64,000 nt of DNA from an uncultured Lachnospiraceae bacterium (lineage in GTDB: Bacteria; Bacillota; Clostridia; Lachnospirales; Lachnospiraceae): NCBI GenBank assembly GCA_947570615.1, contig CANOVJ010000007.1, forward strand, positions 1 to 64,000, written 5' to 3'. The notes below the pieces were generated by a model. The model was not told where the DNA came from and made no database searches. It worked only from the letters and a program-made list of their open reading frames with translations. Positions 39,171 through 63,276 of this stretch are shown piece after piece. How positions within the stretch are numbered: the stretch's first letter is position 1; every line of letters starts with the position of its first letter. Both the position numbers and the translations under genes were made by a program.

Positions 39171-39298
39171 CGGCCGGACAGCCGGAAATTCTCCGGAAGG
39201 GGAGGATTGTCCATCCGGCAGGCTTTGTTCAACCTGTCGGACGGAGCCGGATAAGCGAAATCCTTTTTCGGTAATTCTCATAAAATTGTAAAAAAGTG

Positions 39299-39327
39299 TT
39301 GCAATTAAGAAAGATATGGAGTATCTT
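39299..39327 (+). promoter_or_regulatory. Promoter of glutamine synthetase III
   Basis: TTGCAA (39299-39304), 17-bp spacer, TATCTT (39322-39327). It gives a leader of about 210 bases that contains the first copy of the two-hairpin element. The rest of the 39171-39544 gap has only a CCGGCAGG/CCTGTCGG hairpin near 39213-39240. Confidence 0.5.
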
Positions 39328-39398
39328 GATAAAAGAAAACAGAATGATATTTTTTATGAACGAAGATGTTCCAAATTTTTTTGGAGCATTCTTTTTTT

Positions 39399-39486
39399 GC
39401 ACAGGGGCGCACAGGGGAAACAGTTGCTGTGCAACGTGCGCCCCGCGCGGCGAGCCCGGGGAGAAGAGCGCCCCTGGCTCGATCAT
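39399..39486 (+). repeat. Two-hairpin dispersed element, copy 1 (glnN leader)
   Basis: Hairpin 1 has an outer stem GGGGCGCAC (39404-39412) with GTGCGCCCC (39436-39444), a 10-base purine-rich bulge (AGGGGAAACA) and an inner stem GTTGC/GCAAC. Hairpin 2 pairs GAGCC-GGGG (39452-39461) with CCCC-GGCTC (39471-39480), one mismatch. The element follows a T-run (39391-39398) next to a weak TCCAAA/TTTGGA hairpin. Copies 2 and 3 are at 46129 and 49435. Confidence 0.8.
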
Positions 39487-39544
39487 GCAGGGGAGCACAG
39501 AGGAAGCGGTGCTGAGGAGTTTATGGAAAGGAAAGGGTGAGAAA

Positions 39545-41656
39545 ATGAGTGAAGTGATCAATGTGGAGGAGATTTTTGCCAGTAAGGTATTTACGCGCGC
39601 GACCATGAGGGAGCGGCTTCCCAAAAATGTCTATAAGGAAGTCCTTCGGGTGATGGATAAGGGCGGGGAGCTGACGCCTGCCGCCGCGGATGTGGTGGCG
39701 AAGGCCATGAAGGATTGGGCGGTGGAAAACGGCGCTACCCATTATACTCACTGGTTCCAGCCGCTGACGGGGATTACCGCGGAAAAGCACGATTCCTTTG
39801 TATCCCTTCCGGATGAGAGCGGAAGGATGATCATGGACTTTTCGGGGAAGGAGCTGATCAAGGGAGAACCGGACGCCTCTTCCTTCCCTTCGGGGGGGCT
39901 TCGGGCAACCTTTGAGGCAAGAGGATATACCGCGTGGGATATCACCTCTCCCGCCTTTTTGAAGGAGGATGCCACCGGAGTGATCCTGTGCATTCCCACC
40001 GCGTTCTGCTCCTACAAGGGAGAGGCGCTGGACAAAAAAACTCCCCTGCTCCGTTCCATGGAGGTGGTCAGCGAGCAGGCGCTGCGGATTGTCCGGCTCT
40101 TTGGCAATACGACGGCGACCAGGGTGGTTCCCAGCGTGGGGCCCGAGCAGGAATATTTCCTGGTGGACAGAGAAAAATACTTAAAGAGGCCGGATCTGGT
40201 CTTTACCGGACGGACGCTCTTTGGCGCGCCCGCGCCTAAAGGGCAGGAGCTGGAGGATCACTATTTCGGAACCATCCGTGAGCGGGTGGGGGCTTATATG
40301 AGGGATCTGAACATCGAGCTCTGGAAGCTGGGCGTTACCGCCAAGACCCAGCACAATGAGGTGGCGCCGGCCCAGCACGAGCTTGCCACCATCTATGAGA
40401 TGGCCAATACCGCGGTGGATCACAATCAGCTTGTGATGGAGACCATGAAGAAGGTAGCGGGACGCCACGGGCTGACCTGCCTGCTTCACGAGAAGCCCTT
40501 TGCCGGGGTAAACGGATCCGGAAAGCATAACAACTGGTCGCTGACCACGGACAACGGCATAAATATGCTGGATCCCGGAGATACCCCCAATGAAAACATC
40601 CAGTTTCTGCTGGTTCTGGCCTGTATCATCAAGGCGGTGGATAAACACGCGGATCTGCTCCGCCAGAGCGCGTCGGATGTGGGGAACGACCACAGGCTGG
40701 GCGCAAACGAGGCGCCCCCTGCCATTATCTCCATTTTCCTGGGGGAACAGCTCGAGGATGTGGTGCGTCAGCTGGTGGAAACCGGGGAGGCGGCGCATCT
40801 GCTGGAGGGAGGAAAGCTGGAGACAGGCGTTTCCACTCTGCCCGATTTCGCCAGGGACGCCACGGACCGGAACAGAACCTCGCCCTTTGCCTTTACCGGG
40901 AACAAATTTGAATTCCGTATGGTGGGCTCCGCGGACTCCATCGCAAGCCCCAATACCATCTTAAACGCGATCGTGGCGGAGGCCTTCTGCGAGGCCGCGG
41001 ATGTGCTGGAGACGGCGGAGGATTTTGATATCGCGGTGCATGACCTGATCAAGGAGTATCTCACCGAGCATCAGAGGATTATCTTCAACGGCAACGGCTA
41101 TTCTGACGAGTGGGTAGCGGAGGCCCACAGGAGAGGGCTTCCCAACATCAGGTCCATGATAGAGGCGGTGGGAACTCTGACCACGGACAAATCCGTAAAG
41201 CTCTTTGAGAAGTTCGGTATCTTTACCAGGGCGGAGCTGGAGTCACGGGCGGAGGTGCTCTATGAGACCTATGTGAAGACGATCAACATCGAAGCCCTCA
41301 CCATGATCGAGATGGCCTCGAAGCAGATCATCCCCGCAGTGGTGAAATATACCAGATCCCTGGCGGACACGGTGATTGCCGTGCGGGATGCCGGAGCGGA
41401 CGCCTCCGCTCAGGCACAGATCCTTCAGGCAGTTTCCGAAAAGCTCTGTGCCATGAAAGCGGCTCTTGGAAAACTGGAGGAGGTGGAGGATAAAGCGGGA
41501 ACGATCGCCAACGCCAGAGAGCAGGCTTTTTATTACAGGGATGAAGTAAAGCCGGCCATGGACGCGCTCAGAGCCCCTGCCGACGAGGCGGAGATGCTGG
41601 TGGACAAAAAGGTATGGCCGTTGCCCACCTATGGGGATCTGATCTTCGAGGTGTAG
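39545..41656 (+). CDS. glnN: Glutamine synthetase type III
   Basis: 703 residues. ATG 39545 follows AAAGGGTGAG; the frame is open far upstream through the repeat element, but this is the family start (MSEVINVEEIFASKVF). Typical type III features are GATHYTHWFQPLTGITAEKHDSF, SFPSGGLRATFEARGYTAWD, VGPEQEYFLV, NEVAPAQHELA and KHNNWSLTT, with glutamate and ATP sites. GlnN makes glutamine from glutamate and ammonia as a hexamer or dodecamer and is the main ammonia-assimilating enzyme in many gut anaerobes. It is monocistronic; a GAGAGGAA/TTCCTCTC hairpin with an inner TGTCG/CGACA stem (41674-41708) lies just downstream. Confidence 0.96.
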   Translation: MSEVINVEEIFASKVFTRATMRERLPKNVYKEVLRVMDKGGELTPAAADVVAKAMKDWAVENGATHYTHWFQPLTGITAEKHDSFVSLPDESGRMIMDFSGKELIKGEPDASSFPSGGLRATFEARGYTAWDITSPAFLKEDATGVILCIPTAFCSYKGEALDKKTPLLRSMEVVSEQALRIVRLFGNTTATRVVPSVGPEQEYFLVDREKYLKRPDLVFTGRTLFGAPAPKGQELEDHYFGTIRERVGAYMRDLNIELWKLGVTAKTQHNEVAPAQHELATIYEMANTAVDHNQLVMETMKKVAGRHGLTCLLHEKPFAGVNGSGKHNNWSLTTDNGINMLDPGDTPNENIQFLLVLACIIKAVDKHADLLRQSASDVGNDHRLGANEAPPAIISIFLGEQLEDVVRQLVETGEAAHLLEGGKLETGVSTLPDFARDATDRNRTSPFAFTGNKFEFRMVGSADSIASPNTILNAIVAEAFCEAADVLETAEDFDIAVHDLIKEYLTEHQRIIFNGNGYSDEWVAEAHRRGLPNIRSMIEAVGTLTTDKSVKLFEKFGIFTRAELESRAEVLYETYVKTINIEALTMIEMASKQIIPAVVKYTRSLADTVIAVRDAGADASAQAQILQAVSEKLCAMKAALGKLEEVEDKAGTIANAREQAFYYRDEVKPAMDALRAPADEAEMLVDKKVWPLPTYGDLIFEV

Positions 41657-41699
41657 GATTCTGACCGGATTTGGAGAGGAAGTGTCGGCTGCAGCGACA

Positions 41700-41976
41700 A
41701 TTCCTCTCTGACCATTTCCTTATGGAAAACGGCACACACACAATACCAGTCAGCACAGGAACGATAATCATCAGATATGGCGATCAGATATATTTTCCAA
41801 AGATATGAAACGTATACGTCCGGAAAATATCGGTTGCACTTCCCGCTAACGGAATTAGGCTCAACGCTTTCTGCAACCCGAAAGGAAGATACGGATCGAT
41901 TACAGCCGAAGATATCAGCATGACAATTCCAGCATATCCCACCCGGTTCTTTCTATAATAAATGTATGGGCCGAGC
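41700..41976 (-). pseudogene. Relic of an ABC-2-type permease C-terminus
   Basis: Reading the minus strand from 41976 gives a membrane-protein tail: YIYYRKNRVGYAGIVMLISS, then AVIDPYLPFGLQKALSLIPL and DIFRTYTFHIFGKYI, a stop codon (TGA), and then in the same frame SPYLMIIVPVLTGIVCVPFS and IRKW. This is the last two membrane segments of an ABC-2-type permease like those of bacteriocin-immunity transporters. No start or earlier part remains. The relic lies next to the SdpR/SdpI locus, which is also linked to antimicrobial-peptide immunity. Confidence 0.65.
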
Positions 41977-41990
41977 GCCGCCCTTCCGGT

Positions 41991-42101
41991 TTATAATATT
42001 CCCCACAGACTCCCTCGCCGCCGTTTGGAGCCGAAAAAGCCCCGGTGTTTGACATCCGCGGGGGTATGCGGGGCGGGGATCAGCGTCACGTCCCTTGCCA
42101 T
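41991..42101 (-). CDS. Small open frame of 36 residues with strong ribosome binding site
   Basis: ATG at 42101-42099 is preceded on the minus strand by GGGAGGG at a good distance. The protein, MARDVTLIPAPHTPADVKHR followed by a Phe/Gly/Lys/Arg-rich end, matches no family I know. It has no membrane segment. It is divergent from sdpR and in frame with the permease relic, so it may be the remnant of a chopped gene. Included because the start signals are good. Confidence 0.25.
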   Translation of the reverse strand: MARDVTLIPAPHTPADVKHRGFFGSKRRRGSLWGIL

Positions 42102-42168
42102 TTCACTTCCCTCCCCTCAATTTTTGTGTTTATATGGGCATCCCTTCCTCCGGCTTTTTCTTTTATAA

Positions 42169-42226
42169 AAGTATTTAAAAATATTTTGAAATACTTGTTG
42201 ACTCCAAAAGCGAATGTCACTATAAT
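42169..42226 (+). promoter_or_regulatory. Promoter and operator of the sdpR-sdpI locus
   Basis: TTGACT (42198-42203), 17-bp spacer, TATAAT (42221-42226). Directly upstream an inverted repeat AAGTATTT (42169-42176) and AAATACTT (42189-42196) with 12 bp between is a good ArsR-type operator. Confidence 0.8.
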
Positions 42227-42265
42227 GCTGTTTAAAGAAAATTTGAAACAGGAGGACGAGAATGA

Positions 42266-42532
42266 TTGGCAGTAAGTGAAGTATTGGCAGCTTTGGCTGA
42301 TGAAACCCGTAGAAAGATTTTGCAAAAATTAAAGGAGGGCAGAATCAATTCCGGTGATTTGGCAAATGCACTGAATATGTCACCACAGGCATTATCTTAT
42401 CATTTGTCAAAGCTGAAAAAGGCAGACCTGATTTATGAAACAAAATACAAAAATTTTATTTATTATGAGCTGAACTTATCTATTCTGGACGAAGCAGTCA
42501 TGTGGATAAACAATTTACGGGGCGGTCAGTAA
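42266..42532 (+). CDS. ArsR-family autorepressor, SdpR-like
   Basis: 88 residues. The start is TTG at 42266, 10 bases after AGGAGG; the ATG at 42263 is in another frame and stops at once. The winged helix has ALADETRRKILQKLKEGRIN, then SGDLANALNMSPQALSYHLS and KFIYYEL-type wing residues (NFIYYELNLS). There are no metal-binding cysteines, which fits the SdpR branch. In Bacillus SdpR represses itself and the immunity gene sdpI, and SdpI holds it at the membrane when toxin is present. The stop overlaps the start of the broken sdpI-like gene. The region is richer in AT than the core genes. Confidence 0.85.
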   Translation: MAVSEVLAALADETRRKILQKLKEGRINSGDLANALNMSPQALSYHLSKLKKADLIYETKYKNFIYYELNLSILDEAVMWINNLRGGQ

Positions 42533-43268
42533 TGAAAGTGAAAAAAACTGTGTTTTATGGGCTTATGTTTCTGCCACTGATAAGTGCTTTAATTGCGTTA
42601 CAGTTTTTGCCGGAGCAAATCCCTGCTCATTATGGTTTAAACAATCAGGTAACACGCTGGGGCAGTTAATACAGTTCTCTTATTGTTCCCATTGTTACAG
42701 CCATGCTGGGCTGCTTTTTTCAGGGAATAGCAAAGGGTGCCGCAAAACATGAAGAAAATGGAAACAATAATGAGAATGTATGTATTGTTGCCGGTATTGT
42801 TACGCTTATTATTTTTAATGCTATGACCGGGTACATTTTATACGCCGGTTTTAATAAGATTGAAAACCTGTCATCCGGAAAATTTGATGTTAATCAGTTA
42901 TTGTTTGGAATTTCAGGTGTCGCCATGATTATCACAGGGAATATAATGCCAAAGTTAAGAATGAACGCGCTCACCGGACTGAAAACCAGGTGGAGCATGA
43001 AGAATGAAACGACATGGAAAAAAGCCAGCGTTTTGGTGGAATCTCCTGCATGATCGCAGGTATTGCCATAGTTATGATATGCTTCTTTGTTCAGGGTATT
43101 TACTGCTTTCTGTCTGCGTTGGGAGTAATTGCAATTCTTCTGGTGACTGACGTTTTTTATACTTACAAGATAGCCCATTTCCGGCAACACCCGGTATGCC
43201 GAAATCCCCTGTTTACGGGTTTTGTGGGCTTTCCGTGTCCGTATCTGCCAGGGAAGGGGAAGCTCTGA
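42532..43268 (+). pseudogene. SdpI-family immunity/membrane protein, broken by nonsense and frameshift
   Basis: The frame begins at ATG 42532 (TAATG overlap with sdpR). It reads KKTVFYGLMFLPLISALIAL, then HYGLNNQVTRWGS and a TAA at 42667-42669 where a lysine is usual. The same frame continues to 43053 with NIMPKLRMNALTGLKTRWSM. At the A run 43018-43023 one A appears lost: KKSQRFGGISCMIAG continues in the next frame to a TGA at 43266. The final residues after FYTYKIA are unlike the family end. Three defects make a functional protein unlikely. SdpI proteins give immunity to the SDP cannibalism toxin and signal to SdpR; here the repressor is intact and the sensor is broken. Confidence 0.85.
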
Positions 43269-43350
43269 CAAAATATGACAGTATCCCCCGTGCTTCAACT
43301 GCATCCAGATACAAAGAATGCATCTTTTGACAAAACTTAAAGCTTTACTT

Positions 43351-44715
43351 TCAGTTTGTATTTACTTCAGCGGCAAAAATTTTGCTGCATAATTCTGTAT
43401 ATTCATCATATGAAATTTCAGCATCATTCAATGTATATTTCATGCCGGCCTCCGCATTATTGAAATCGGCAGGTTCCTCGCCGAAATTCATCTCTGCTGT
43501 CAGGTTATCAGCTCCTTCAAATTTTTCCATATGGTAAAATTCAAATCCTGCACTCGACCTGTTGCTATACATAATCCATACAGCTCCGTTATAATAAGTA
43601 TACGAAAGCGTGAGGGCAGTGCCGCCTGGCGCCGCAAACTCATATACTTTGTTATCACGCGCATCAAGATATATACCGCCATAAGGACCATTAATGATCA
43701 GTTCATTTTCACCATCATTGTCAAGATCGACTTTCTCTCCGACAGAATATGAGTTCCATTCTTCAGAGTCCCTGTTTAAATCAGTAATATAAAATGTCGA
43801 ATCTGTGGAGTCGGATGCACTTATTGAGCCACTTATGAATAAATCCAACAGTTCTTCTGCTGTCGCTTCCGAATCTGCATTTTCAACCGCATGTACACTG
43901 TCCTCCTGCTGATTTGCAGAGACATCCGATGATTTATAAAACCTGAATTCATTTATGCCTGCAAAATCAGTCCATTCCTGACCCAAAATGGTTACTGTTG
44001 CGATATCTTCATCCAATGTGATAACTCCATTCACTTTATCATCGCCATCACCAGGACCTGATGCTGTAAACGCTAATCCGTCTTCCGTTTCCATTCCGAT
44101 ACCGTCATCTAATAAGAACAACCTGTACAGATCTATCTGAATCCGATAGGTTCCATCATTGTTTTTCTTTATTTCCAATGCCGGCTCATTTACATCATAA
44201 TCATTATATACGCCCTCATACTCATATACGTCAGCCACCGTTTCCGTTATCTTTGTGGCATGATATAAAAATTCAGCCTCTTTAAATGAAGATTTCCCAT
44301 AATATACACCTATTCCATCTGTGCTGTATTCAAGAATATAATAACTGAAAACAGCCTCTCCATCAGAAAATGTCTGTTCAGGATACTTTATATAGATTCT
44401 GTTATCTTCCGTGGTTTCTATATTAGATGAATCGGCTAAGAAACGGTAAGAAGATTCTGATTCATAATCGGAAATGTCATAGCCATGGGATGTCTTTTTA
44501 ATCGATAATTTGCCGGTTCCATAATCCGATAAATAACTATATTCTCCCGTCAGGCTTTCCAACACATCATCTTTACTTTCCACCGTATCGTCACTGATTT
44601 GGGCGGCGCCTGTCACGTCTGCCGGATTCTCTTCCGGATTTTCAGCCTGCCCGCATGCCGAAAGTACAGACATAACTATTCCCATCGCCATCATCATTTT
44701 TATTTTTTTCATCAT
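43351..44715 (-). CDS. Lipoprotein of unknown function
   Basis: 454 residues. The lipoprotein signal is MMKKIKMMMAMGIVMSVLSAC with C21, after a GAGGAAA ribosome binding site. The mature protein is acidic and beta-rich: a first domain of about 200 residues (LTGEYSYLSDYGTGKLSIKK, YEYEGVYNDYDVNEPALEIK), an Asp/Ser/Glu-rich linker, and a second domain with an EF-hand-like Asp-rich loop (VGEKVDLDNDGENELIINGP) of the kind that binds calcium. I recognise no family. The gene is clearly AT-richer than its neighbours, which suggests recent acquisition. It stands alone. Confidence 0.8.
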   Translation of the reverse strand: MMKKIKMMMAMGIVMSVLSACGQAENPEENPADVTGAAQISDDTVESKDDVLESLTGEYSYLSDYGTGKLSIKKTSHGYDISDYESESSYRFLADSSNIETTEDNRIYIKYPEQTFSDGEAVFSYYILEYSTDGIGVYYGKSSFKEAEFLYHATKITETVADVYEYEGVYNDYDVNEPALEIKKNNDGTYRIQIDLYRLFLLDDGIGMETEDGLAFTASGPGDGDDKVNGVITLDEDIATVTILGQEWTDFAGINEFRFYKSSDVSANQQEDSVHAVENADSEATAEELLDLFISGSISASDSTDSTFYITDLNRDSEEWNSYSVGEKVDLDNDGENELIINGPYGGIYLDARDNKVYEFAAPGGTALTLSYTYYNGAVWIMYSNRSSAGFEFYHMEKFEGADNLTAEMNFGEEPADFNNAEAGMKYTLNDAEISYDEYTELCSKIFAAEVNTN

Positions 44716-45021
44716 TCATTTTCCTCATTTCTGCACTGCATCCCCAGACCATCACGAAAACCCGATACTTACATGCAAAACTAAAGCACCGACCAATCGC
44801 CCCTTTATCAGCGATATCTAAAAACACGAAAACGCAGGGTTCCCCAACCATTCCGGTGAACCCCACAAAACCTTAATAATCCCAATACAAAGCAACGCTT
44901 TCTATTTACTTTAAACCATTCCTCAATACTTTTGCCTGCGAGTACCCAGATTCCCATGGCATCAATTCAAGATTGCCGCCTGTACAGCGTGTACCCTGCG
45001 CTGATCCGGATCCTGGACGGC
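44716..45021. other. Intergenic region, no gene seen
   Basis: Between two minus-strand genes. It should contain the promoter of the lipoprotein gene. A weak GGGTTC/GAACCC stem near 44838-44864 is the only structure noted. Confidence 0.4.
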
Positions 45022-45693
45022 TCAGTCCACCTTAACCTCCAAATAGCCAAGGAGCTTGCTCATGTCATACTCGGAGATGACTCCCAGATTGGAGTCGTAA
45101 AACTTTCCGTCATAGTGTACCAGGTAGTGGCAGTAAAGCCCCATTTTTTCCATCATGATACAGCATTTGGGCAGTGTGGCCTCCTGACCTTCCGTGTATA
45201 CAATAATATCACTGTGGTCGATACCGTAATAATTCAGCGCCGAGATCACCCGTCCCATGGTTCCCTGCCATTCCCGGCAGTCCATCACGCTGATTACCTC
45301 CGCGATGGTGACGCCGGCCAGCATGGCCACACAGGTCTGGCCGCAGAGTCCGTCCTCCGGCTGAATGATAATGTCGAGCCCGTCGATTTTCCGAATCGGA
45401 TTTTCAAAGCTGTAGGGACTGTTCTGATTCACGTGGATCAGGCTTTTGGTGATATGAAGCAGTATTTTATGGACTTTGGAGATGTCCATATGGGAGACGT
45501 CCTCCTCCTGCAGATGGATCTTGTAGATCCCCTTTGTCTCGGGGAGAAGGGTGCAGGCAACGATCTTATTGTCCAGAACCAGCTCGCCCTCAATCTCGCC
45601 CCGCTGTCTGCAGACCTCCCATACGTTGAAGGGGATACGGATGGTGTAAATGTCCCCCTCCTTTTCGATTTTTCCACTGAAAAAATACCTCAT
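45022..45693 (-). CDS. Fusion of DUF1905-like barrel and C39-like cysteine peptidase domain
   Basis: 223 residues. ATG 45693 follows GGAGG with an ATTTTT spacer; the open frame upstream is not needed. The first ~65 residues (FFSGKIEKEGDIYTIRIPFN, RGEIEGELVLDNKIVACTLL) resemble the small beta-barrel DUF1905. From about residue 105 the pattern changes to a papain-like fold of the C39/BtrH type: EDGLCGQTCVAMLAGV with C121 as nucleophile, and HYDGKFYDSNLGV with H193 and D200 as the other catalytic residues. No signal peptide and no transporter are present, so this is not a leader peptidase of a normal bacteriocin exporter. The substrate is unknown. Both domain calls are by pattern. Confidence 0.65.
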   Translation of the reverse strand: MRYFFSGKIEKEGDIYTIRIPFNVWEVCRQRGEIEGELVLDNKIVACTLLPETKGIYKIHLQEEDVSHMDISKVHKILLHITKSLIHVNQNSPYSFENPIRKIDGLDIIIQPEDGLCGQTCVAMLAGVTIAEVISVMDCREWQGTMGRVISALNYYGIDHSDIIVYTEGQEATLPKCCIMMEKMGLYCHYLVHYDGKFYDSNLGVISEYDMSKLLGYLEVKVD

Positions 45694-45968
45694 AAAAATC
45701 CTCCATTCTTGCCCGCCTCTGAACCGGGGACAGTGATATAATATTTTGATCAGATTCATTCGTTCCGTTCGGATCTTTGGAAATTGCAGCGCAGGAGAGG
45801 ATTCCTGCTATAAATAAAAATACCAGATTTCTTCCGGCTTGAAAACATATTTTTGCTCCAAATGTATAAAAAATATGTGAAATTTGAAGAAATATTAAAT
45901 GTTAAAAAAATAACAGGTCTGGAGAAATATTGTATTTAAAAAGAAACAATTTTTTGGCAAAAAAATAC

Positions 45969-45997
45969 TTGTCAGAAACAGAATTTTCGGATATAAT
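45969..45997 (+). promoter_or_regulatory. Promoter of tRNA-Gln
   Basis: TTGTCA (45969-45974), 17-bp spacer, TATAAT (45992-45997), 18 bp before the tRNA. The region 45770-45965 upstream is AT-rich and holds no gene. Confidence 0.8.
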
Positions 45998-46015
45998 AGC
46001 AAACGTGATCAAGAT

Positions 46016-46087
46016 TGGGCTATCGCCAAACGGTAAGGCAACGGACTCTGACTCCGTCATTTCAAGGTTCGAATCCTTGTAGCCCAG
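46016..46087 (+). tRNA. tRNA-Gln (anticodon CTG)
   Basis: 72 bases, full cloverleaf. Acceptor TGGGCTA pairs with TAGCCCA, anticodon stem ACGGA with TCCGT around loop CTCTGAC (anticodon CTG at 46048-46050), and T arm CAAGG-TTCGAAT-CCTTG. CCA is not encoded. Its own promoter and terminator flank it. It reads CAG codons. A decayed partial copy lies at 47179-47237. Confidence 0.95.
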
Positions 46088-46095
46088 CGAATGTG

Positions 46096-46127
46096 ACCCG
46101 GCAGAGAAAATCTGCCGGGTTTTCTTA
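46096..46127 (+). terminator. Rho-independent terminator after tRNA-Gln
   Basis: ACCCGGCAGA (46096-46105), GAAAA loop, TCTGCCGGGT (46111-46120), TTTCTT. Confidence 0.92.
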
Positions 46128-46128
46128 T

Positions 46129-46211
46129 GTGCAGGGGCGCAAAAGGGAATTTGCTGTTGTTGCAGCGTGTGCCCCGCGGCGAGTAGAGGGGAAATTTCCT
46201 CTGCCGATTAC
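46129..46211 (+). repeat. Two-hairpin dispersed element, copy 2 (after tRNA-Gln)
   Basis: Hairpin 1: GGGGCGCA (46134-46141) with TGTGCCCC (46068-type wobble, 46168-46175), purine-rich bulge AAAGGGAATTT, inner stem GCTGT/GCAGC (46153-46157, 46162-46166). Hairpin 2: GTAGAGG (46183-46189) with CCTCTGC (46198-46204). It begins right after the T-rich end of the tRNA terminator. The stems differ in sequence from copies 1 and 3 but still pair. Confidence 0.78.
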
Positions 46212-46284
46212 CTGAAAATGCGGTGTTTATGCGGACCTGGCGGACAGGTCAATTTGAAAATTCTAAACAGGCAGATTTGGTTTC

Positions 46285-46313
46285 TTGTAATCAGAGTGTA
46301 AGCTGTATATAAT
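46285..46313 (+). promoter_or_regulatory. Promoter of the broken Rpn-type gene
   Basis: TTGTAA (46285-46290), 17-bp spacer, TATAAT (46308-46313), 21 bp before the start codon. Confidence 0.65.
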
Positions 46314-46334
46314 AATTACAGAGGGAGAAAGCGC

Positions 46335-47059
46335 ATGAAATTCCTGAATAAGCAGGACGGAAACGAGGAAGAGCGGGTTTCCGATACGAATTTTAAAATC
46401 GTGGGAAGGGAAACGAAGAAGTACCACTGGGAATGCCAGAGCAGTACGGACAGCAGTATGCTTGTCAGGTTTTTGAGTATGATACACAGATCGCTCTGGA
46501 TGAGGGAGAGATAAAAGGGCGGGTTCTCACAGCCACCCTGCCGCATTCAGCGGCATTGTTTTTAAGATGTGACAGGTCAACGCCGGACAGCCTGAGAATA
46601 GAAATTGTGACGCCGGGAGGCAGTGTCGGCTATGATATTCCGGTGATGAAATCTCAGAGCTACAGTATCGACGAAATTTTCGAAAAAGGGCTTTTATTTC
46701 TGATACCGTTTTATATCTTTTTGCATGAAAGCCGGTTTAAAGAGTATGATAAGGATGCGGATAAGCTACGGGCTTTAAAGGATGAATACGGGGATATCAT
46801 GGGCAGGCCAGAAGGCCTGCTGGATGCGGGGCAAATCAGCGAATATACGAAATGTACGCTGATCGATATGTCCAATAAGGTATTAGAGCATATTGCCCGG
46901 AAATATGAAAATGTCAGGGAAGGAGTGAAATCAGTTATGGGAGGAAGAGTACTTGATTATGAGGCCAAGAGGATAAAGAACGAAGGAAAGCTGGAAGGAA
47001 GGCTGGAAGGAAATTTGGCTAACGATGAAATGATAACAGATCTCTATATGAAGAACTGA
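46335..47059 (+). pseudogene. Rpn-type (PD-(D/E)XK transposase-like) protein, truncated and frameshifted
   Basis: A GAGGGAGAAA site precedes ATG 46335. The first frame gives ~46 codons ending KKYHWECQSS and LVRF, then loses register at the T run 46470-46474: one more T would give RFFEYDTQIALDEGEIKG, as continued in the frame that ends at 47059. The core (YHWECQ, FEYDTQIAL, FLIPFYIFLHE) is that of the Rpn/YhgA-like family of recombination-promoting nucleases. The usual first ~80 residues are missing, including much of the nuclease core. The end has the GKLEGRLEGNLA repeats that are common in the family. Promoter and start signals are intact, so a short product may be made. Confidence 0.7.
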
Positions 47060-47104
47060 AAAATAAAATTCTTTTGGAATTACTGCTAATGTTGAAGCGA
47101 TAGG

Positions 47105-47146
47105 ACCGGGACGTCCTCTGGATAAGGTATGGCGTTCCGGTTTTTT
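47105..47146 (+). terminator. Terminator after the broken Rpn-type gene
   Basis: ACCGGGACG (47105-47113) pairs with CGTTCCGGT (47133-47141) with one G-T pair, then a T-run to 47146. Confidence 0.75.
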
Positions 47147-47178
47147 ACAGGTGCCGGGTGAGACTTCCCTATAAATAA

Positions 47179-47237
47179 TGATCAGATGACAGGGCCCTGA
47201 CCCCGTCATTTGAGGGTTCGAATTGTTGTAACCCGGC
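47179..47237 (+). pseudogene. Relic of a tRNA-Gln gene (3' part)
   Basis: From the anticodon (CTG kept at 47197-47199) to the acceptor end the sequence matches the intact tRNA-Gln at about 35 of 42 positions: CCCGTCATTTGAGGGTTCGA and TTGTAACCCGG. Just upstream TGATCAGAT matches the TGATCAAGAT before the real tRNA, so the acceptor 5' strand and D arm were deleted. It cannot fold as a tRNA. It has its own terminator downstream, which points to a duplicated tRNA gene rather than a pure attachment site. Confidence 0.75.
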
Positions 47238-47246
47238 GAATAAATC

Positions 47247-47272
47247 CGATGGATTGGTTCCATCGTTTTTTT
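47247..47272 (+). terminator. Terminator after the tRNA relic
   Basis: CGATGGA (47247-47253) pairs with TCCATCG (47259-47265), then seven Ts. Confidence 0.8.
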
Positions 47273-47413
47273 GATTGAGACGGGCTATACTTTAGAATTA
47301 TTAAACAATAAAAACTTGAATGCAACAATTTCTATGGAAAAGCAATTTTTATGTAAATGAGATTTTCCAGCAAAAGGCATATGCAGAAAGATGGTTGAAG
47401 AAAAGGGCATTTA

Positions 47414-47441
47414 TTGAAATTATTGTGAGGACGTGTATAAT
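47414..47441 (+). promoter_or_regulatory. Promoter upstream of the RlmA-type gene
   Basis: TTGAAA (47414-47419), 16-bp spacer, TATAAT (47436-47441). The stretch 47273-47602 holds no gene otherwise. Confidence 0.65.
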
Positions 47442-47602
47442 AAACAGTAAGAGAGCGGATTGATAAGGATGAACTGGAGAAGAAAACAGGGGCTGTTTTT
47501 ATAGTGGCTTCAATCCCGATTCTGTTTTGTATTTTTCACATGGAAGTTGTTTGGAGCAGTGAGGAGCGCAGTAAGACTTTACACATAAAGGAAACACCGA
47601 AA

Positions 47603-48412
47603 ATGATCTTAACGGAATATCTGAAATGCCCCATATGTTCGTCCCCTTTTGTGCTGAGCGGAGATGAAAAAAGCCTCGTCTGCGGCCGCGGCCATAATTT
47701 CGATCTGGCCCGGCAGGGATATGTGAATCTCTGCGGCGGTTCCATGGGAAAGCTTTATGAACAAAAGGAGCTTTTCCAGGCAAGGAGGAACGTCTACGAG
47801 GCGGGATTTTTCAGAGGGGTGGAGGAGGCGGCCGGAGCCCTTTTGAAGGAGCTTTTTCCCGGGAACGGGGCGGTGGTCGTGGAGGCCGGATGCGGGGAGG
47901 GCTCGTTTCTGTCCCGTATGGAGCGGGACAATCCGGGGAACCGCTATATTGGTCTGGATATATCAAAGAACGCGGTCAGGATGGCGGCCCGGGGAAACCC
48001 CAGGATCAGCTGGCTTGTTGCGGATATCTGTAAAATCCCCATAAAGGACGGATGCATCGATTGTATTATTGACATGCTCACGCCGGCGAATTATACTGAA
48101 TTCAACCGGATTTTAAAACCGGGGGCGTACATAATGAAAATTATCCCCGGCGACTCTTATCTGAGGGAGCTGCGCCGGAATCTGGGGCTGGGCCGGTATG
48201 AAAACAAAGGGGTGGACAGCTTCTTTTCCGGTCAGTTTGAGTTGCTTGACCGCAGGCAGATCACGTATGTTTTTGACTGTGAGCCCTCCATTTCGGAGGA
48301 TATCTATGTTATGACGCCAATGTCAGAAAAGCGCGAAGAGGAGAGCCTTCGGAAAAGGGTGGATTCGGTTACCATGGATCTGACACTGATGGTGGGGAAA
48401 GTCCGGAAGTAA
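47603..48412 (+). CDS. RlmA-type 23S rRNA (guanine-N1)-methyltransferase
   Basis: 269 residues from ATG 47603 (AAAGGA upstream); the longer open frame from 47504 is unlikely. The N-terminal zinc finger (C9, C12, C27, H31 in LKCPICSSPF and VCGRGHNFDLARQGYVNLC) is diagnostic of the RlmA family, as is the Rossmann motif VVEAGCGEGSFLSRM and the later DMLTPANYTEFNRILKPG. The family methylates G745 or G748 of 23S rRNA; in Gram-positives RlmA(II)/TlrB changes sensitivity to tylosin and telithromycin. It is a single gene, 35 bp before the SGNH hydrolase gene, which may be cotranscribed. Confidence 0.88.
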   Translation: MILTEYLKCPICSSPFVLSGDEKSLVCGRGHNFDLARQGYVNLCGGSMGKLYEQKELFQARRNVYEAGFFRGVEEAAGALLKELFPGNGAVVVEAGCGEGSFLSRMERDNPGNRYIGLDISKNAVRMAARGNPRISWLVADICKIPIKDGCIDCIIDMLTPANYTEFNRILKPGAYIMKIIPGDSYLRELRRNLGLGRYENKGVDSFFSGQFELLDRRQITYVFDCEPSISEDIYVMTPMSEKREEESLRKRVDSVTMDLTLMVGKVRK

Positions 48413-48447
48413 GCTTCCAGACGCTCTGTTGGAGCAGGAGTATAAAA

Positions 48448-48990
48448 ATGAGAGTATTATTTATTGGAAACAGTCACACTTTCTATAATGATATGCCGCA
48501 TCTGTTTGCACAGATCTGCCGTGAAAAGGGGAGGGATGTGGAGGTGACCATGCTGACCCATGGAGGAAAGGGCTGGGACTTCCACGTGGAGGAGCCGGAG
48601 GTAAGGTTTAATATCTTCTATGGAGGATATGACGCGGTGGTTCTTCAGCACACGGCCCATCCCATGGGGGATCCGGAAGTGATGAACCGGTGTGGCAGGA
48701 CGCTGATCGAATGGGTCAGGCAGGCTGGCGCGCGTCCGATCCTGTATATGACCTGGACTGCCAGGGCGGACGGGGAAGCGGCGCAGGCGGGTATGAGCGG
48801 CGCTTACAGGAGATTACAGCAGGAGACCGGATGCGAGATGGCCCCGGTAGGAGAGAACTGGTGGAAGTATCACAGGGAGCATCCCGATGAGGAAATGTAC
48901 GCGGAGGATGGAGAGCACGCCTCGCTGACCGGTTCGAGACTGGCGGCGGCCACCATCGCGGAGGTTTATCTGGGAGGGCTCCGGGACTGA
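48448..48990 (+). CDS. Small SGNH/GDSL-like hydrolase
   Basis: 180 residues, preceded by GGAGCAGGAG. The start RVLFIGNSHTFYNDM has GNSH in place of GDS, with S9 as the likely nucleophile; LTHGGKGWDFH supplies the glycine block, and EDGEHASLTGSRLAA near 155-170 gives the Asp and His of the triad. No signal peptide, so cytosolic. Such enzymes deacetylate sugars or cleave esters; the closest look is to the DUF4886-like group. A weak terminator (49074-49093) follows. Substrate unknown. Confidence 0.8.
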   Translation: MRVLFIGNSHTFYNDMPHLFAQICREKGRDVEVTMLTHGGKGWDFHVEEPEVRFNIFYGGYDAVVLQHTAHPMGDPEVMNRCGRTLIEWVRQAGARPILYMTWTARADGEAAQAGMSGAYRRLQQETGCEMAPVGENWWKYHREHPDEEMYAEDGEHASLTGSRLAAATIAEVYLGGLRD

Positions 48991-49073
48991 TTATACAGAG
49001 AAATGCAGTTGAAACATAGAGAGCGGCTTTACCCCCCTCAGGGGGAGCGCAGTACGGCGGAGATGGAACTGGC

Positions 49074-49093
49074 ACCGCTGCGCCGCGGTTTTT
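49074..49093 (+). terminator. Weak terminator after the SGNH hydrolase gene
   Basis: ACCGC (49074-49078) with GCGGT (49085-49089), followed by TTTT; the stem is short. Confidence 0.4.
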
Positions 49094-49139
49094 GAGAAAC
49101 CCCAGGTTTTTCATGGGAAGCCTCTCTTTATCATAGGAA

Positions 49140-49431
49140 AAGGCGATGAAGGGAAGAGTAGACGGTCTGTGCTTTGACAGAGACCCCGGGCTGGTGAAAA
49201 CGGGGAAAGCGGCAGGGCGATCGAATATGGCCCCGGAGCCGCGTACCGAAAGCAGAGATGCTCAGGCTACGACGGGTTCACCCGTTACAGTGACAGGCTA
49301 TCGGCAGATCATTTCCTGCCCGTAGTTTACGAGGCTCCTGCTGCGAGGCATGAGTGAATTTGGGGTGGTATCACGAAGCGCAAGGCTCTCGTCCCTGAAA
49401 AGAAATTTTCAGAGAGGAGGGTCTTCTTTTT
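49140..49431 (+). promoter_or_regulatory. T-box riboswitch (Met specifier) of the metG leader
   Basis: The leader has the T-box parts in order: GAAGGGAAGAGTAGAC at the base of stem I, AGAGA-type bulge and the distal loop GGCTGGTGAAAACGG (49189-49204), an ATG specifier in CGAATATGGCC (ATG at 49227-49229), the T-box box GGGGTGGTATCACGAAGCG (49362-49380) and a terminator (CTGAAAA/TTTTCAG inner stem, 49395-49412, then TCTTCTTTTTT). Uncharged tRNA-Met would bind it and allow read-through into metG. The downstream gene is MetRS, which fits the ATG specifier. Confidence 0.88.
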
Positions 49432-49434
49432 TAT

Positions 49435-49520
49435 GCGCAGGGGCGCACAGAGGAATCTGTTGCATACGCAACGTGCGCCCCGCGCGGCGGGCAGGGAGAA
49501 AAGCATTCCCTGCCTGATCA
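49435..49520 (+). repeat. Two-hairpin dispersed element, copy 3 (metG leader)
   Basis: Hairpin 1: GGGGCGCAC (49440-49448) with GTGCGCCCC (49473-49481), bulge AGAGGAATCT, inner stem GTTGC/GCAAC with loop ATAC. Hairpin 2: GGCAGGGA (49490-49497) with TCCCTGCC (49507-49514). It starts directly after the T-run of the T-box terminator, so it lies only in read-through metG mRNA. Confidence 0.8.
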
Positions 49521-60556: not shown

Positions 60557-63276
60557 ATAAAAACAGCAGACTTGTAAAAGGAAAGAAAAGACAGGGCATA
60601 CAGAACCGGAGGGGGATGAAGGCCGTGTGCCTGGCGATGGCCGGCGCTCTGACCCTTACCGCCTGTGGAACCGGGAATGAGCAGGCGCAGGCATCGTCGG
60701 CGATCACGCCGGAGAATCAGGAACAGGTGTTGGAGCAGGTGCTTAACGCACAGATCAGTCCCTCCCACAGCAGCGAGGCAGGCAAGGAGGAGACGGTTTA
60801 TGTGCTGGCGGACGCCAGGGGCGGCGTCAGTCAGGTGATCGTCAGCGACTGGCTGAAGAATGCAGATGGCGGCAGCAGTCTTTCGGACTGTACGGATCTG
60901 ACGGATATTGAGAATGTAAAGGGCTATGAGACCTTTGAGAAGGACGGGGAGGGAAATCTTACCTGGAAGGCCCAGGGCGCGGACATCTATTACAGAGGCA
61001 GCTCGGATAAGGAGCTCCCTGTGGAGGTAAAGCTCTCCTATCAGCTCGACGGGAAGGATATTACGCCGGAGGAGCTGGCGGGAAAAAGCGGCCGCGTGAC
61101 CATCCGCATGGACTATATTAATAAGGAAACAAAGACAGTGGAGGTCGGCGGAAAAAAGCAGGAGATCAAAGTCCCCTTCGCCATGCTCTCGGGGATGGTG
61201 CTTCCTCAGGATACCTTTTCCAATATCGAGGTGAAAAACGCAAGGCTCCTGTCCGAGGGCAGTAACAGCGTGGTGGTGGGCATTGCGTTCCCGGGACTTA
61301 AGGAGAGTATCGATCTGGAGGATTTAAAGGACCGGATTGAGGAGGAAAAAAAGGAAGAGCTGGAGGAGATGGAGATTCCGGACTATATCGAGATCTCGGC
61401 GGATACGGAGAATTTCGAGCTGGGAATGACCATGACGGTGGCTATGAGCGATGTGCTCTCTCAGATTAACCTGACAGATTCCATCGACCTGTCGGAGCTG
61501 AACGATTCCATGGAGGAGCTGCAGGAGGCCTCGAACCAGTTAAAGGATGGGACCAGGGAGCTTAAGGACGGAAGCGGGCAGCTTAAGGACGGAACGGGAG
61601 AGCTCCTTTCGGGAACCGGCGAGCTGTGGGACGGTACGGCGGAGCTTAAGGACGGCACACAGGAGCTGTCCGATAAGTCGGCGCTGCTGGATGATGGAGC
61701 CAGATCTCTTGACGATGGGGCGTCGGCGCTTTTAAACGGCACATCGGAGCTCTTAAACGGCACCGTGCAGCTGCAGGACGGCGTGTCGGAGCTCGCCCAG
61801 GGGGCGGGAGCGCTGCAGGATGGCGGAGCGAAGCTGGCTGACGGGACGGGAAGCCTGGTGAGCGGCGCGAAGGAGCTGGATGCCGGGGCCGGCGCGCTGG
61901 TTGCGGGGCTTACGAGGGCCAGCACCGGAGCGCAGGATCTTCAGAAGGGGATTCACATGCTCCTGGAGCAGGTAAACGGATTGTGTCAGCTCTATGGGAT
62001 CCCCATACAGGGCGGCCAGTCTGCCGCCAGTGATACGGTAGATACTTATCTGGCGCAGCTGGAGACGCAGAGAGACCAGGCAATGGCCCAGGCCGCTCAG
62101 GCCCAGGAGGCCTACAACAGCGCGGAAAGCGCACTGGCCGCGGCCTGTGAGCCCGACAGCCAGAGCCTGGAGGTGGTAAGCGACCAGGGGACACAGATCA
62201 TCAGCGAGGAGGCTCAGATGGAGGTGCCGGTCAGCGCCACCACCGTTACCAGAACCATCACCCGGACCATCACCAGCGAACCGGCGCAGACAGAGGAAGG
62301 CGGCGAGGGAGAGCTGCAGGTGTCGGAGAGCGTTGAGGAGAGCGTGGATGAATCTACGGATTCCTGGACGGAGACGGTGTCCAAAACCGTGGAGGTGGAG
62401 GTACCTGTCTATTCCACCGAGACCGTAAATGTGGAGACGGTCAGTACCGATCAGGTGCAGAGCGCGCTGGCGGACTGCCGGCAGGCGGGGGAGCAGCTCT
62501 CGGCCTGCGAGGCGGCGGTGCAGTCATATGATGAACAGATCGACACGTTGCAGGCCCTGTCCGCGGCCCTTGCCTCAGACGAGGCGGCCAGAACGCAGAC
62601 ACAGGCACAGCAGCAGGCGGAGCTGGCGGCGAATTTACAGGCTCTGCAGCAGGCTCTCACCCAGCTCTCGGCGGGCATCGACGCGCTGGCGGGGGATCAG
62701 GGGCTCAGAGCGCTGAATACGGGAGCCAGCCAGCTCAAAGACGGAACTTCCTCGGCGGTTTCGGGGGCGCAGGAACTGAACAGCGGGGCCAATGCCCTGA
62801 AGCAGGGAATCGATACCTTAAACGACGGGGCCGGACGGCTTAAGGACGGAGCCGGGAGCCTTAAGGACGGCGCGTCGCAGCTTAAGAGCGGCACAGAGGA
62901 ATTAAAGAGCGGAACCGCACAGCTTCGGGACGGAACCGGACAGCTGGTGGAAGGCACAGGCGCTTTAAACGACGGTGCAGGGAAGCTTAAGGAGGGAGTC
63001 AGTACCTTAAGGGACGGCGTTCTGACTCTGGACGACGGCGTGGGGACGCTGGATGAGGGAGCTCTCGCTCTGATGGACGGCATGTTCGAATTTGACGAGG
63101 AAGGAATCAGCAGACTGACAGGCCTGTTCGGGGACGATGTGCAGGACGTGGTAGACAGACTGAAGGCGGTTTCCGACGCCGGAAAGGAGTACAATACCTT
63201 TACGAGGCTTCCGGAGGGAATGGACGGCAGTGTGAAATTCATTATTAAGACGGAGGCGGTTTCCAGAGAAGAGTAA
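60553..63276 (+). CDS. Heptad-repeat lipoprotein partner of the RND/MMPL exporter
   Basis: 907 residues; the ATG overlaps the exporter stop. A long basic start leads to a lipoprotein-like signal AVCLAMAGALTLTAC with C38. Residues ~50-310 form a beta-rich domain. Two blocks of xxxLxxG heptads follow, about 320-460 and 715-845 (QLKDGTRELKDGSGQLKDGT; LKDGAGSLKDGASQLKSGTE). They are split by ~250 residues: a coiled coil, a Thr/Val/Glu-rich segment (VTRTITRTITSEPAQTEEGG, TVSKTVEVEVPVYSTETVNV), and another coiled coil. Such repeats occur in YhgE/Pip and in partners of MMPL exporters and should form a long rod outside the membrane. There is no C-terminal membrane helix. It may bridge the exporter to the cell wall; that is inference. 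Confidence 0.85.
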   Translation: MNKNSRLVKGKKRQGIQNRRGMKAVCLAMAGALTLTACGTGNEQAQASSAITPENQEQVLEQVLNAQISPSHSSEAGKEETVYVLADARGGVSQVIVSDWLKNADGGSSLSDCTDLTDIENVKGYETFEKDGEGNLTWKAQGADIYYRGSSDKELPVEVKLSYQLDGKDITPEELAGKSGRVTIRMDYINKETKTVEVGGKKQEIKVPFAMLSGMVLPQDTFSNIEVKNARLLSEGSNSVVVGIAFPGLKESIDLEDLKDRIEEEKKEELEEMEIPDYIEISADTENFELGMTMTVAMSDVLSQINLTDSIDLSELNDSMEELQEASNQLKDGTRELKDGSGQLKDGTGELLSGTGELWDGTAELKDGTQELSDKSALLDDGARSLDDGASALLNGTSELLNGTVQLQDGVSELAQGAGALQDGGAKLADGTGSLVSGAKELDAGAGALVAGLTRASTGAQDLQKGIHMLLEQVNGLCQLYGIPIQGGQSAASDTVDTYLAQLETQRDQAMAQAAQAQEAYNSAESALAAACEPDSQSLEVVSDQGTQIISEEAQMEVPVSATTVTRTITRTITSEPAQTEEGGEGELQVSESVEESVDESTDSWTETVSKTVEVEVPVYSTETVNVETVSTDQVQSALADCRQAGEQLSACEAAVQSYDEQIDTLQALSAALASDEAARTQTQAQQQAELAANLQALQQALTQLSAGIDALAGDQGLRALNTGASQLKDGTSSAVSGAQELNSGANALKQGIDTLNDGAGRLKDGAGSLKDGASQLKSGTEELKSGTAQLRDGTGQLVEGTGALNDGAGKLKEGVSTLRDGVLTLDDGVGTLDEGALALMDGMFEFDEEGISRLTGLFGDDVQDVVDRLKAVSDAGKEYNTFTRLPEGMDGSVKFIIKTEAVSREE

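Follow-up and report, generated by a model that had tools for sequence, protein, structure and literature searches.

A two-hairpin repeat behind intrinsic terminators in Lachnospiraceae, probably a mobile element

The element in the window

The window considered here, that is, the whole stretch of 64,000 nucleotides that was analysed, comes from an uncultured Lachnospiraceae bacterium (contig CANOVJ010000007.1, positions 1 to 64,000). Its own genome, G000, is a draft of 4.05 Mb in 112 contigs and is 94.8% complete. Other genomes carry G-numbers (G002, G028 and G013 are among the congeners), and loci fetched from the genomes carry L-numbers. Three copies of an element of about 85 bp, composed of two hairpins, lie in the window: in the leader of the type III glutamine synthetase gene (glnN), behind a tRNA-Gln gene, and in the leader of metG, right after its T-box. 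The family to which they belong is real, abundant, structured and tied to terminators, and it is probably mobile; a demonstrated regulatory RNA it is not. The features at the three sites, with scores from the covariance model R1 described below and z values of the predicted folds, are as follows.

39366..39398, + strand: glnN leader, hairpin resembling a terminator, with its T-tract; host site of copy 1 (from the sequence; T-tract starts at 39392)
39399..39484, + strand: element copy 1 (R1 78.4 bits; fold z -3.28; end GATC)
39487..39510, + strand: probable remnant of a second unit, GCAGGGGAGCACAGAGGAAGCGGT (direct repeat D16; blast piece 39487-39505, E 0.19)
46016..46088, + strand: tRNA-Gln (CTG), upstream of copy 2
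46097..46127, + strand: terminator hairpin and T-tract after tRNA-Gln, host site of copy 2 (from the sequence; T-tract starts at 46120)
46129..46209, + strand: element copy 2 (R1 66.9 bits; fold z -3.55; end GATT)
49137..49399, + strand: metG T-box leader (RF00230, 80.0 bits, E 1.6e-17 over the genome; below the Rfam gathering score of 93)
49389..49434, limits approximate, + strand: terminator region of the T-box with its T-tract, hosting copy 3 (from the sequence; T-tract starts at 49422)
49435..49519, + strand: element copy 3 (R1 104.6 bits; fold z -7.31; end GATC)

A unit runs in the order GCGCAG, hairpin 1, GCGG, hairpin 2, and GATT or GATC. The foot of hairpin 1 is GCGC/GCGC and has a bulged A. 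The hairpin further comprises an outer stem of 9 bp, an asymmetric internal loop on the 5' side with RGGAA, and an inner stem of 5 bp, the loop of which is usually 4 nt long. Hairpin 2, with a stem of about 10 bp, ends in GATT and has no T-tract. An earlier note, made from the letters of the window alone, had described three copies with a common order of parts, each after a T-run. This description holds, and a hairpin with T-tract lies right before each copy. The differences between stems that it had pointed out are also in the sequence. The inner stem is GTTGC/GCAAC in copies 1 and 3 and GCTGT/GCAGC in copy 2, while hairpin 2 is GAGCC.GGGG in copy 1 (the outer stem of which is GGGGCGCAC/GTGCGCCCC), GTAGAGG/CCTCTGC in copy 2 and GGCAGGGA/TCCCTGCC in copy 3. 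Each copy outfolds all 200 of its dinucleotide shuffles. Across the family, the stems fall into subfamilies of the GGGGCGCAC, GGCCCGCAT, GGCCCACAC, GCCCCATGC and ACGGGCACCC types. An optional CCGGCGCGCCGG palindrome is present within the internal loop of hairpin 1 at the own-genome loci L014, L017, L019 and L029.

In the glnN leader (39250-39398), an extra small hairpin is seen by eye before the terminator, and the terminator site is common to G002, where a similar hairpin lies ahead of the element at L159. This stretch has no Rfam match, and the leader may be an attenuator of its own kind.

Abundance, position and turnover of the element

With copy 3 as query, blast found 45 matches in G000 at E<=10. 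For the covariance model R1, built from 21 own copies (alignment A2), 71 matches reached E<=0.01 and 86 reached E<=1 when 150 of 2744 candidates were scored and the units of arrays were counted singly. In a survey of 60 genomes (the own genome, 35 congeners and 24 of other families) with stricter filters and at most 71 candidates scored per genome, 23 genomes matched at E<=0.01, namely the own genome, 21 of the 35 congeners and one outsider. The congeners differ widely: at least 71 matches were found in G002, at least 37 in G028 and at least 33 in G013, followed by G005 (17), G025 (14), G006 (9) and others with 0-4, and 14 of the 35 had no match at all at this threshold. Across the family, 43 of 250 Lachnospiraceae genomes, own included, had a match at E<=0.001 when 17 candidates per genome were scored, and a looser, more distant type of relative accounts for part of them. 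The covariance-model search of relatives suggested in the earlier note, which had named an absence of further copies as a reason to abandon its idea, therefore found more copies.

The element corresponds to no catalogued family in these searches. At the gathering scores of Rfam 15, only the tRNA was found in the window, and further scans gave T-box, SAM (S-adenosylmethionine) and S10 leaders, with nothing on the element. At E values up to 2 over 11 loci, five sub-threshold matches appeared, one of them on a palindrome beside the L243 element and none on the unit. There was likewise no match to a known REP (repetitive extragenic palindromic) or MITE (miniature inverted-repeat transposable element) family, none of the copy 3 query to plasmids and phages at E<=0.01, and none of one element pattern in viral contigs. 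At the 14 contig loci found by a metG query (15 matches, two of them on one contig), the sole element match had E 0.24. Among the papers listed by literature searches, which were limited to open-licence ones, none describes this repeat.

The position of the element is defined nearly to the nucleotide. A terminator was scored when a hairpin with a T-tract ended no more than 6 nt from the first unit of a cluster; matches below 40 bits were removed (157 of 174 kept), and 3 of 86 G002 clusters were left out for a short flank. By this rule, an intrinsic terminator in the same orientation lies directly upstream of 52/60 first units in G000 and 66/83 in G002. On the other side of the same elements, in antisense, one was found at 2/60 and 0/83, and mononucleotide shuffles gave 10/300 and 21/415, respectively. 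The element, being behind the terminator, is thus outside terminated transcripts. The junction of TTTTTAT with GCGCA was read in 118 first units that scored 60 bits or more and had a recognisable start: position -1 is T in 117 of them, position -2 is A in 103, and positions -3 to -7 are T in 97-109. Within arrays, a unit start is preceded by CGATT instead of the T-tract, which therefore does not belong to the unit. The upstream and downstream open reading frames (ORFs) are both co-oriented with the element at 24/60 clusters in G000 and 48/86 in G002.

Eleven arrays were scored, with non-overlapping matches only, so that overlapping second units were lost and arrays are commoner than this count. 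The first unit was top-scoring in 10 of the 11, with means of 91 vs 61 bits. At L297 (G002 C31), three or more similar units stand in tandem behind a T-box leader, with ATTATAGG joining them. Arrays elsewhere are mixed, and tandem duplication may thus also occur.

Comparison of G000 with G002, which have a mean identity of 74% over 119 blocks longer than 400 bp, indicates how such sites change. For 14 of the 60 own clusters, both flanks were present in fetched G002 loci; a G002 element was at 10 of them and none at 4, one of which (L166) reads as a remnant. In the reverse direction, 10 of 16 G002 sites were shared. The terminator ahead of the element is recognisably the same at most shared sites. 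The first units behind it are unlike: ranked by similarity among 96, the ortholog's first unit came 3, 35, 22, 38, 51, 42, 23, 67, 32 and 23. At L197/L129, the G000 unit resembles the second G002 unit (0.76) more than the first (0.70). At L209/L164, the G000 first unit has, by eye, the same type as the second unit of G002. Older units may thus have been passed down behind more recent ones. A single pair of identical units, at two separate loci in G002, suggests that copying or conversion took place recently. The array scores and the unlike first units fit repeated entry at the same junction. Element-free loci (L123, L185, L209 and L197) stand beside full counterparts (L208, L143, L164 and L129), with downstream flanks loosely aligned, and the T-boxes of metG and leuA in G002 and of ileS in G000 (leuA and ileS named by eye) are element-free. 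The AT of the TTTTTAT junction is missing from some of the element-free sites.

Attenuator leaders are frequent hosts in some species. The Rfam T-box model finds 13 T-boxes in G000 and 10 in G002, and at E<=0.05 an element follows 8/13 and 8/10 of them, the latter count including one half element and one lying 65 nt further on; by eye, two more G000 T-box leaders carry remnants. Elsewhere, the element follows 4/12 T-boxes in G232, 2/5 in G189, 0/9 in G028 and 0/4 in G013. The single SAM leader of G000 and that of G002 both have it, as does one of three thiamine pyrophosphate (TPP) riboswitches (0/1 and 1/2); the T-run of the remaining two overlaps with the start region. Only 2/27 tRNAs in G000 have an element, which differs from the T-boxes with p = 0.0006. 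The T-box preference is therefore clear in two species, weaker in two other genera and absent in two element-rich congeners. It may reflect either target choice or tolerance. The nearness of all copies to amino-acid or nitrogen genes, which the earlier note had stated, reflects the T-box leaders: 10/60 own first units follow a T-box-like motif, 50/60 do not, and the other neighbours belong to mixed families.

In two genera (L244 and L245), a related element lies behind the terminator of the rpsT (S20) gene, read by eye, which is possibly a recurrent site. The idea that the most-used terminators are hit most was raised by stable RNA genes in G002 loci chosen for their elements, and it was dropped in view of the own tRNAs.

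Pairing and the absence of a clear RNA-strand signature

The earlier note had argued from three copies, a thin basis, that pairing is conserved while the sequence changes. Larger samples bear this out. In A2, 96.7% of cells pair, and double-sided changes occur at 14/28 pairs. Its covariation score was 0.322 vs 0.180 for shuffles, with 0/500 reaching the observed value, and slid controls stayed at or below 0.115; further pair types were not above shuffles (27 vs 26.7). In 149 distinct copies, 95.4% of cells pair, compensated changes occur at 26/28 pairs, and the score was 0.386 vs 0.185, in an alignment that was fitted to R1 and hence leans to structure. The covariation nulls for both samples are not tree-aware.

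When an RNA on a given strand is under selection, G.U pairs should be tolerated in its stems and A.C mismatches should not. The two were counted over the 28 pairs of the 150 best copies. The overall ratio of G.U to A.C was 151:119, and it became 114:111 (p 0.89) without the innermost pair of hairpin 2, next to the loop, which alone gave 37:8. By part, the outer stem of hairpin 1 gave 46:57 and its inner stem 17:12, while hairpin 2 gave 88:50, or 51:42 without the innermost pair. The best-scoring 75 copies gave 49:41, and by pair, 15 lean to G.U and 12 to A.C. In A2, the ratio was 21:13. As a control, the acceptor and T stems of the 27 own tRNAs gave 13:1; the rule used to locate these stems was simple and favours pairing. 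There is no clear RNA-strand signature in the element copies. As G.U is close to A.C, individual copies decay about alike on both strands. We read this as a shape needed in founders, for moving or being copied, rather than in resident copies. A DNA hairpin and hairpin-correcting mutation would both give such a pattern.

This result has a wider use. Strong covariation within a repeat family is alone no proof of a functional RNA, and counting G.U against A.C is a cheap check.

Possible modes of spread and their meaning

The reading that we favour, and consider reasonably probable, is a non-autonomous mobile repeat of REP/BOX-like kind that targets the T-tracts of terminators. An enzyme would recognise a folded single strand by its shape and insert it, colinear with an intrinsic terminator, immediately 3' of that terminator's T-tract. 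As insertion would re-create the same junction, later units could enter there and older ones would be pushed downstream, leaving short polar arrays. The copies would thus move, the moving form would be a folded DNA strand rather than an RNA, and the hairpin with its T-tract would be the target rather than a place where insertions survive. The earlier note had offered a small mobile element targeting terminators as one of two options. The position and the copy number support it well; movement itself was not seen.

Several points weigh against this interpretation. The ends GCGCAG and CGATT are not inverted repeats, and no target-site duplication was seen at the element-free sites, which come from distant species. 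The exact ends are uncertain by 1-3 nt, because those sites belong to species of about 74% identity with loosely aligned downstream flanks. By the rule above, 8/60 first units in G000 and 17/83 in G002 have no terminator; several of these misses have a T-tract with no rule-passing hairpin, and others lie behind an older unit. That later units in arrays score lower is partly built in, because first units served to make the model. The loci used to measure site sharing had been picked for holding elements and do not give genome-wide rates, although the exact coincidence of the shared sites still calls for explanation, and these sites could be old insertions overwritten by conversion. No candidate mobiliser emerged either. 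Y1_Tnp (PF01797) has no match in G000, G002 and G013 (drafts; G013 is 59% complete), RVT_1 has none in G000, and no transposase family is among the 25 best-represented of 135 families in 105 of the 111 ORFs flanking own elements; among these 25 there is also no neighbouring gene that recurs. An autonomous version would carry a gene between its two hairpins; a search for stray copies of hairpin 2 turned up arrays and solo palindromes, with no split element.

Two kinds of related sequence accompany the element. Solo hairpin-2 palindromes (e.g., AATCGGGCAGGGG...CCCCTGCCCGATT), which have no hairpin 1 and do not lie behind a T-tract, occur at six loci and make up another form of the repeat, one that is REP-like. 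In contrast, a similar palindrome at L147:841-872 is preceded by TTTTAT. In the three-hairpin relatives, CGCTCCGCGAGG or a similar sequence lies between an upstream palindrome and hairpin 1.

L174:1916-1944, L183:11308-11336, L200:17857-17892, L216:10002-10032, L219:9707-9736, L127:18497-18526: solo palindromes
L277-L284 (G162), L285-L288 (G169), L236, L237, L240, L241, L243, L245, L248: three-hairpin relatives

In G162, G169 and others, the match is looser, with the core of hairpin 1 (GCGC, bulged A, RGGAA-like loop) behind the extra upstream hairpin. The G162 copies end sharply at TTGAC and mostly start with TTTAAC or similar, and some are truncated at the 5' side with the 3' side intact. 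Near-identical copies and sharp ends suggest recent activity in G162, which has 6 Y1 matches. These relatives look IS200/IS605-like, and they may share descent with the type of the window. Elsewhere in the window (61528-62966), two arrays of a 21-nt repeat lie about 1 kb apart and would give 7 residues per unit if coding.

Four other explanations were weighed. The other option of the earlier note was a regulatory RNA selected for its fold. An RNA acting in cis or in trans, at work where leaders such as those of metG and glnN are read through, would account for the strong covariation, for the frequent T-box and SAM sites in G000 and G002, for T-boxes being used above tRNAs in G000, and for the lean of hairpin 2 alone to G.U. 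It does not fit the near equality of G.U and A.C overall, where tRNAs differ sharply, nor copy numbers from 0 to at least 71 among congeners, 14 of which have no match. T-boxes of G028 and G013 are element-free (0/13 together) in genomes with at least 37 and at least 33 matches, leaders without the element stand beside orthologs with it, first units at shared sites are unlike, the element lies behind the terminator, and most own first units have no T-box-like motif before them. Selection as a regulatory RNA is, on this evidence, distinctly improbable. An element that serves the host behind terminators, as an insulator, a gyrase or nucleoid-protein site or a 5' stabiliser of read-through mRNA, possibly once mobile and kept at certain terminators, would explain why the same terminators are occupied in two species of about 74% identity and why the T-box leaders of both, and both SAM leaders, are enriched. 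The type of first unit at shared sites is, however, not tied to the site, and the congeners without a match and the missing T-box enrichment in G028 and G013 also speak against such a role, which we judge unlikely.

The remaining two concern the machinery. Single-strand transposition in trans by an HUH (Y1) enzyme, in the IS200/IS605-derived manner or that of REP with its associated tyrosine transposase (RAYT), with hairpin 1 as the left end and hairpin 2 as the right, would agree with the single orientation, the lack of a visible target duplication, the hairpin ends and the short motif before the left end, which resembles IS605-type targets; the sharply ended G162 relatives in a genome with Y1 matches point the same way. 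Yet Y1_Tnp shows no association with the element: it is present in 3/7 genomes with at least 5 elements (own counted) vs 6/14 congeners without any, and in other genera in 6/12 genomes with at least 5 matches vs 10/16 picked genomes without. This mechanism is rather doubtful. RNA-mediated insertion, either in the manner of a group IIC intron or through a reverse transcriptase that links the element's RNA to the 3' ends left by termination, would suit the position at the 3' end of terminated transcripts, the sense orientation and the truncated 5' and intact 3' ends of distant relatives. Against it, RVT_1 is absent from G000 and is found in 4/7 genomes with at least 5 matches vs 9/14 congeners without, showing no association, and tRNA terminators are not favoured in G000; insertion through RNA seems very improbable.

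Known systems share parts of this picture. Group IIC introns insert behind terminator hairpins in sense orientation; the element differs from them in its length of about 85 nt, in having no group II match in the Rfam scans, and in a host (G000) with no reverse transcriptase match. Non-autonomous elements derived from IS200/IS605 have hairpin ends, a short motif on the left side and no duplication, whereas hairpin 1 of the element starts at the junction itself and no Y1 match is present in G000, G002 and G013. Unlike a MITE, the element has no terminal inverted repeats and no visible target-site duplication. The comparison with IS200/IS605-derived elements also draws on PMC6006769. REP sequences, their mosaic clusters (bacterial interspersed mosaic elements, BIMEs) and RAYT (GTAG and CGTC families) are alike in forming short dispersed palindromes with many copies, clusters and compensated stem differences between subfamilies, and CGTC REPs are described without a dedicated transposase, as given in the parts of the source used (PMC3733652). 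A REP consists of one palindrome, 20-40 bp long, that carries GTAG or CGTC as an unpaired tag; the element has two different hairpins in fixed order over about 85 bp, GTAG is confined to the stem of hairpin 2 in some of its copies, and it is locked in a single orientation to the terminator T-tract. Its hosts are Lachnospiraceae, whereas the main text of the REP/RAYT paper has no words beginning with Firmicutes or Clostridi (PMC3733652), and the three draft genomes named above have no Y1 match. BOX of Streptococcus pneumoniae, compared by description only, has modular repeats, variable arrays, many copies and stable predicted folds, with no terminator-locked junction or orientation mentioned in the parts of the source used (PMC3049150). 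SPRITE of the same species is dispersed, enriched near gene 3' ends and linked to termination, and according to the same parts it is itself terminator-like, with a long stem and a U-rich tract (PMC3049150), whereas the element sits behind a terminator.

Dispersed hairpin repeats are common, and it is the terminator-tied precision and orientation that set the element apart. A bolder extension of the mobile-repeat reading, which we hold only tentatively, is that it represents a new class of mobile repeats, with the terminator as landing site, one orientation, repeated entry, and an enzyme that is neither a Y1 HUH enzyme nor a reverse transcriptase. In some species, this class would prefer attenuator leaders (T-box, SAM), and each insertion would edit the leader of a regulated gene. 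If the mobile-repeat reading is true, a tie to terminators that is precise to the nucleotide, in one orientation and across many genera of gut bacteria would be a sign of a transposition mechanism able to sense terminators. It would also provide a system for asking how targets are chosen, why stems keep their complementarity without an RNA-strand bias, and whether insertion in a T-box leader alters the regulation of amino-acid genes.

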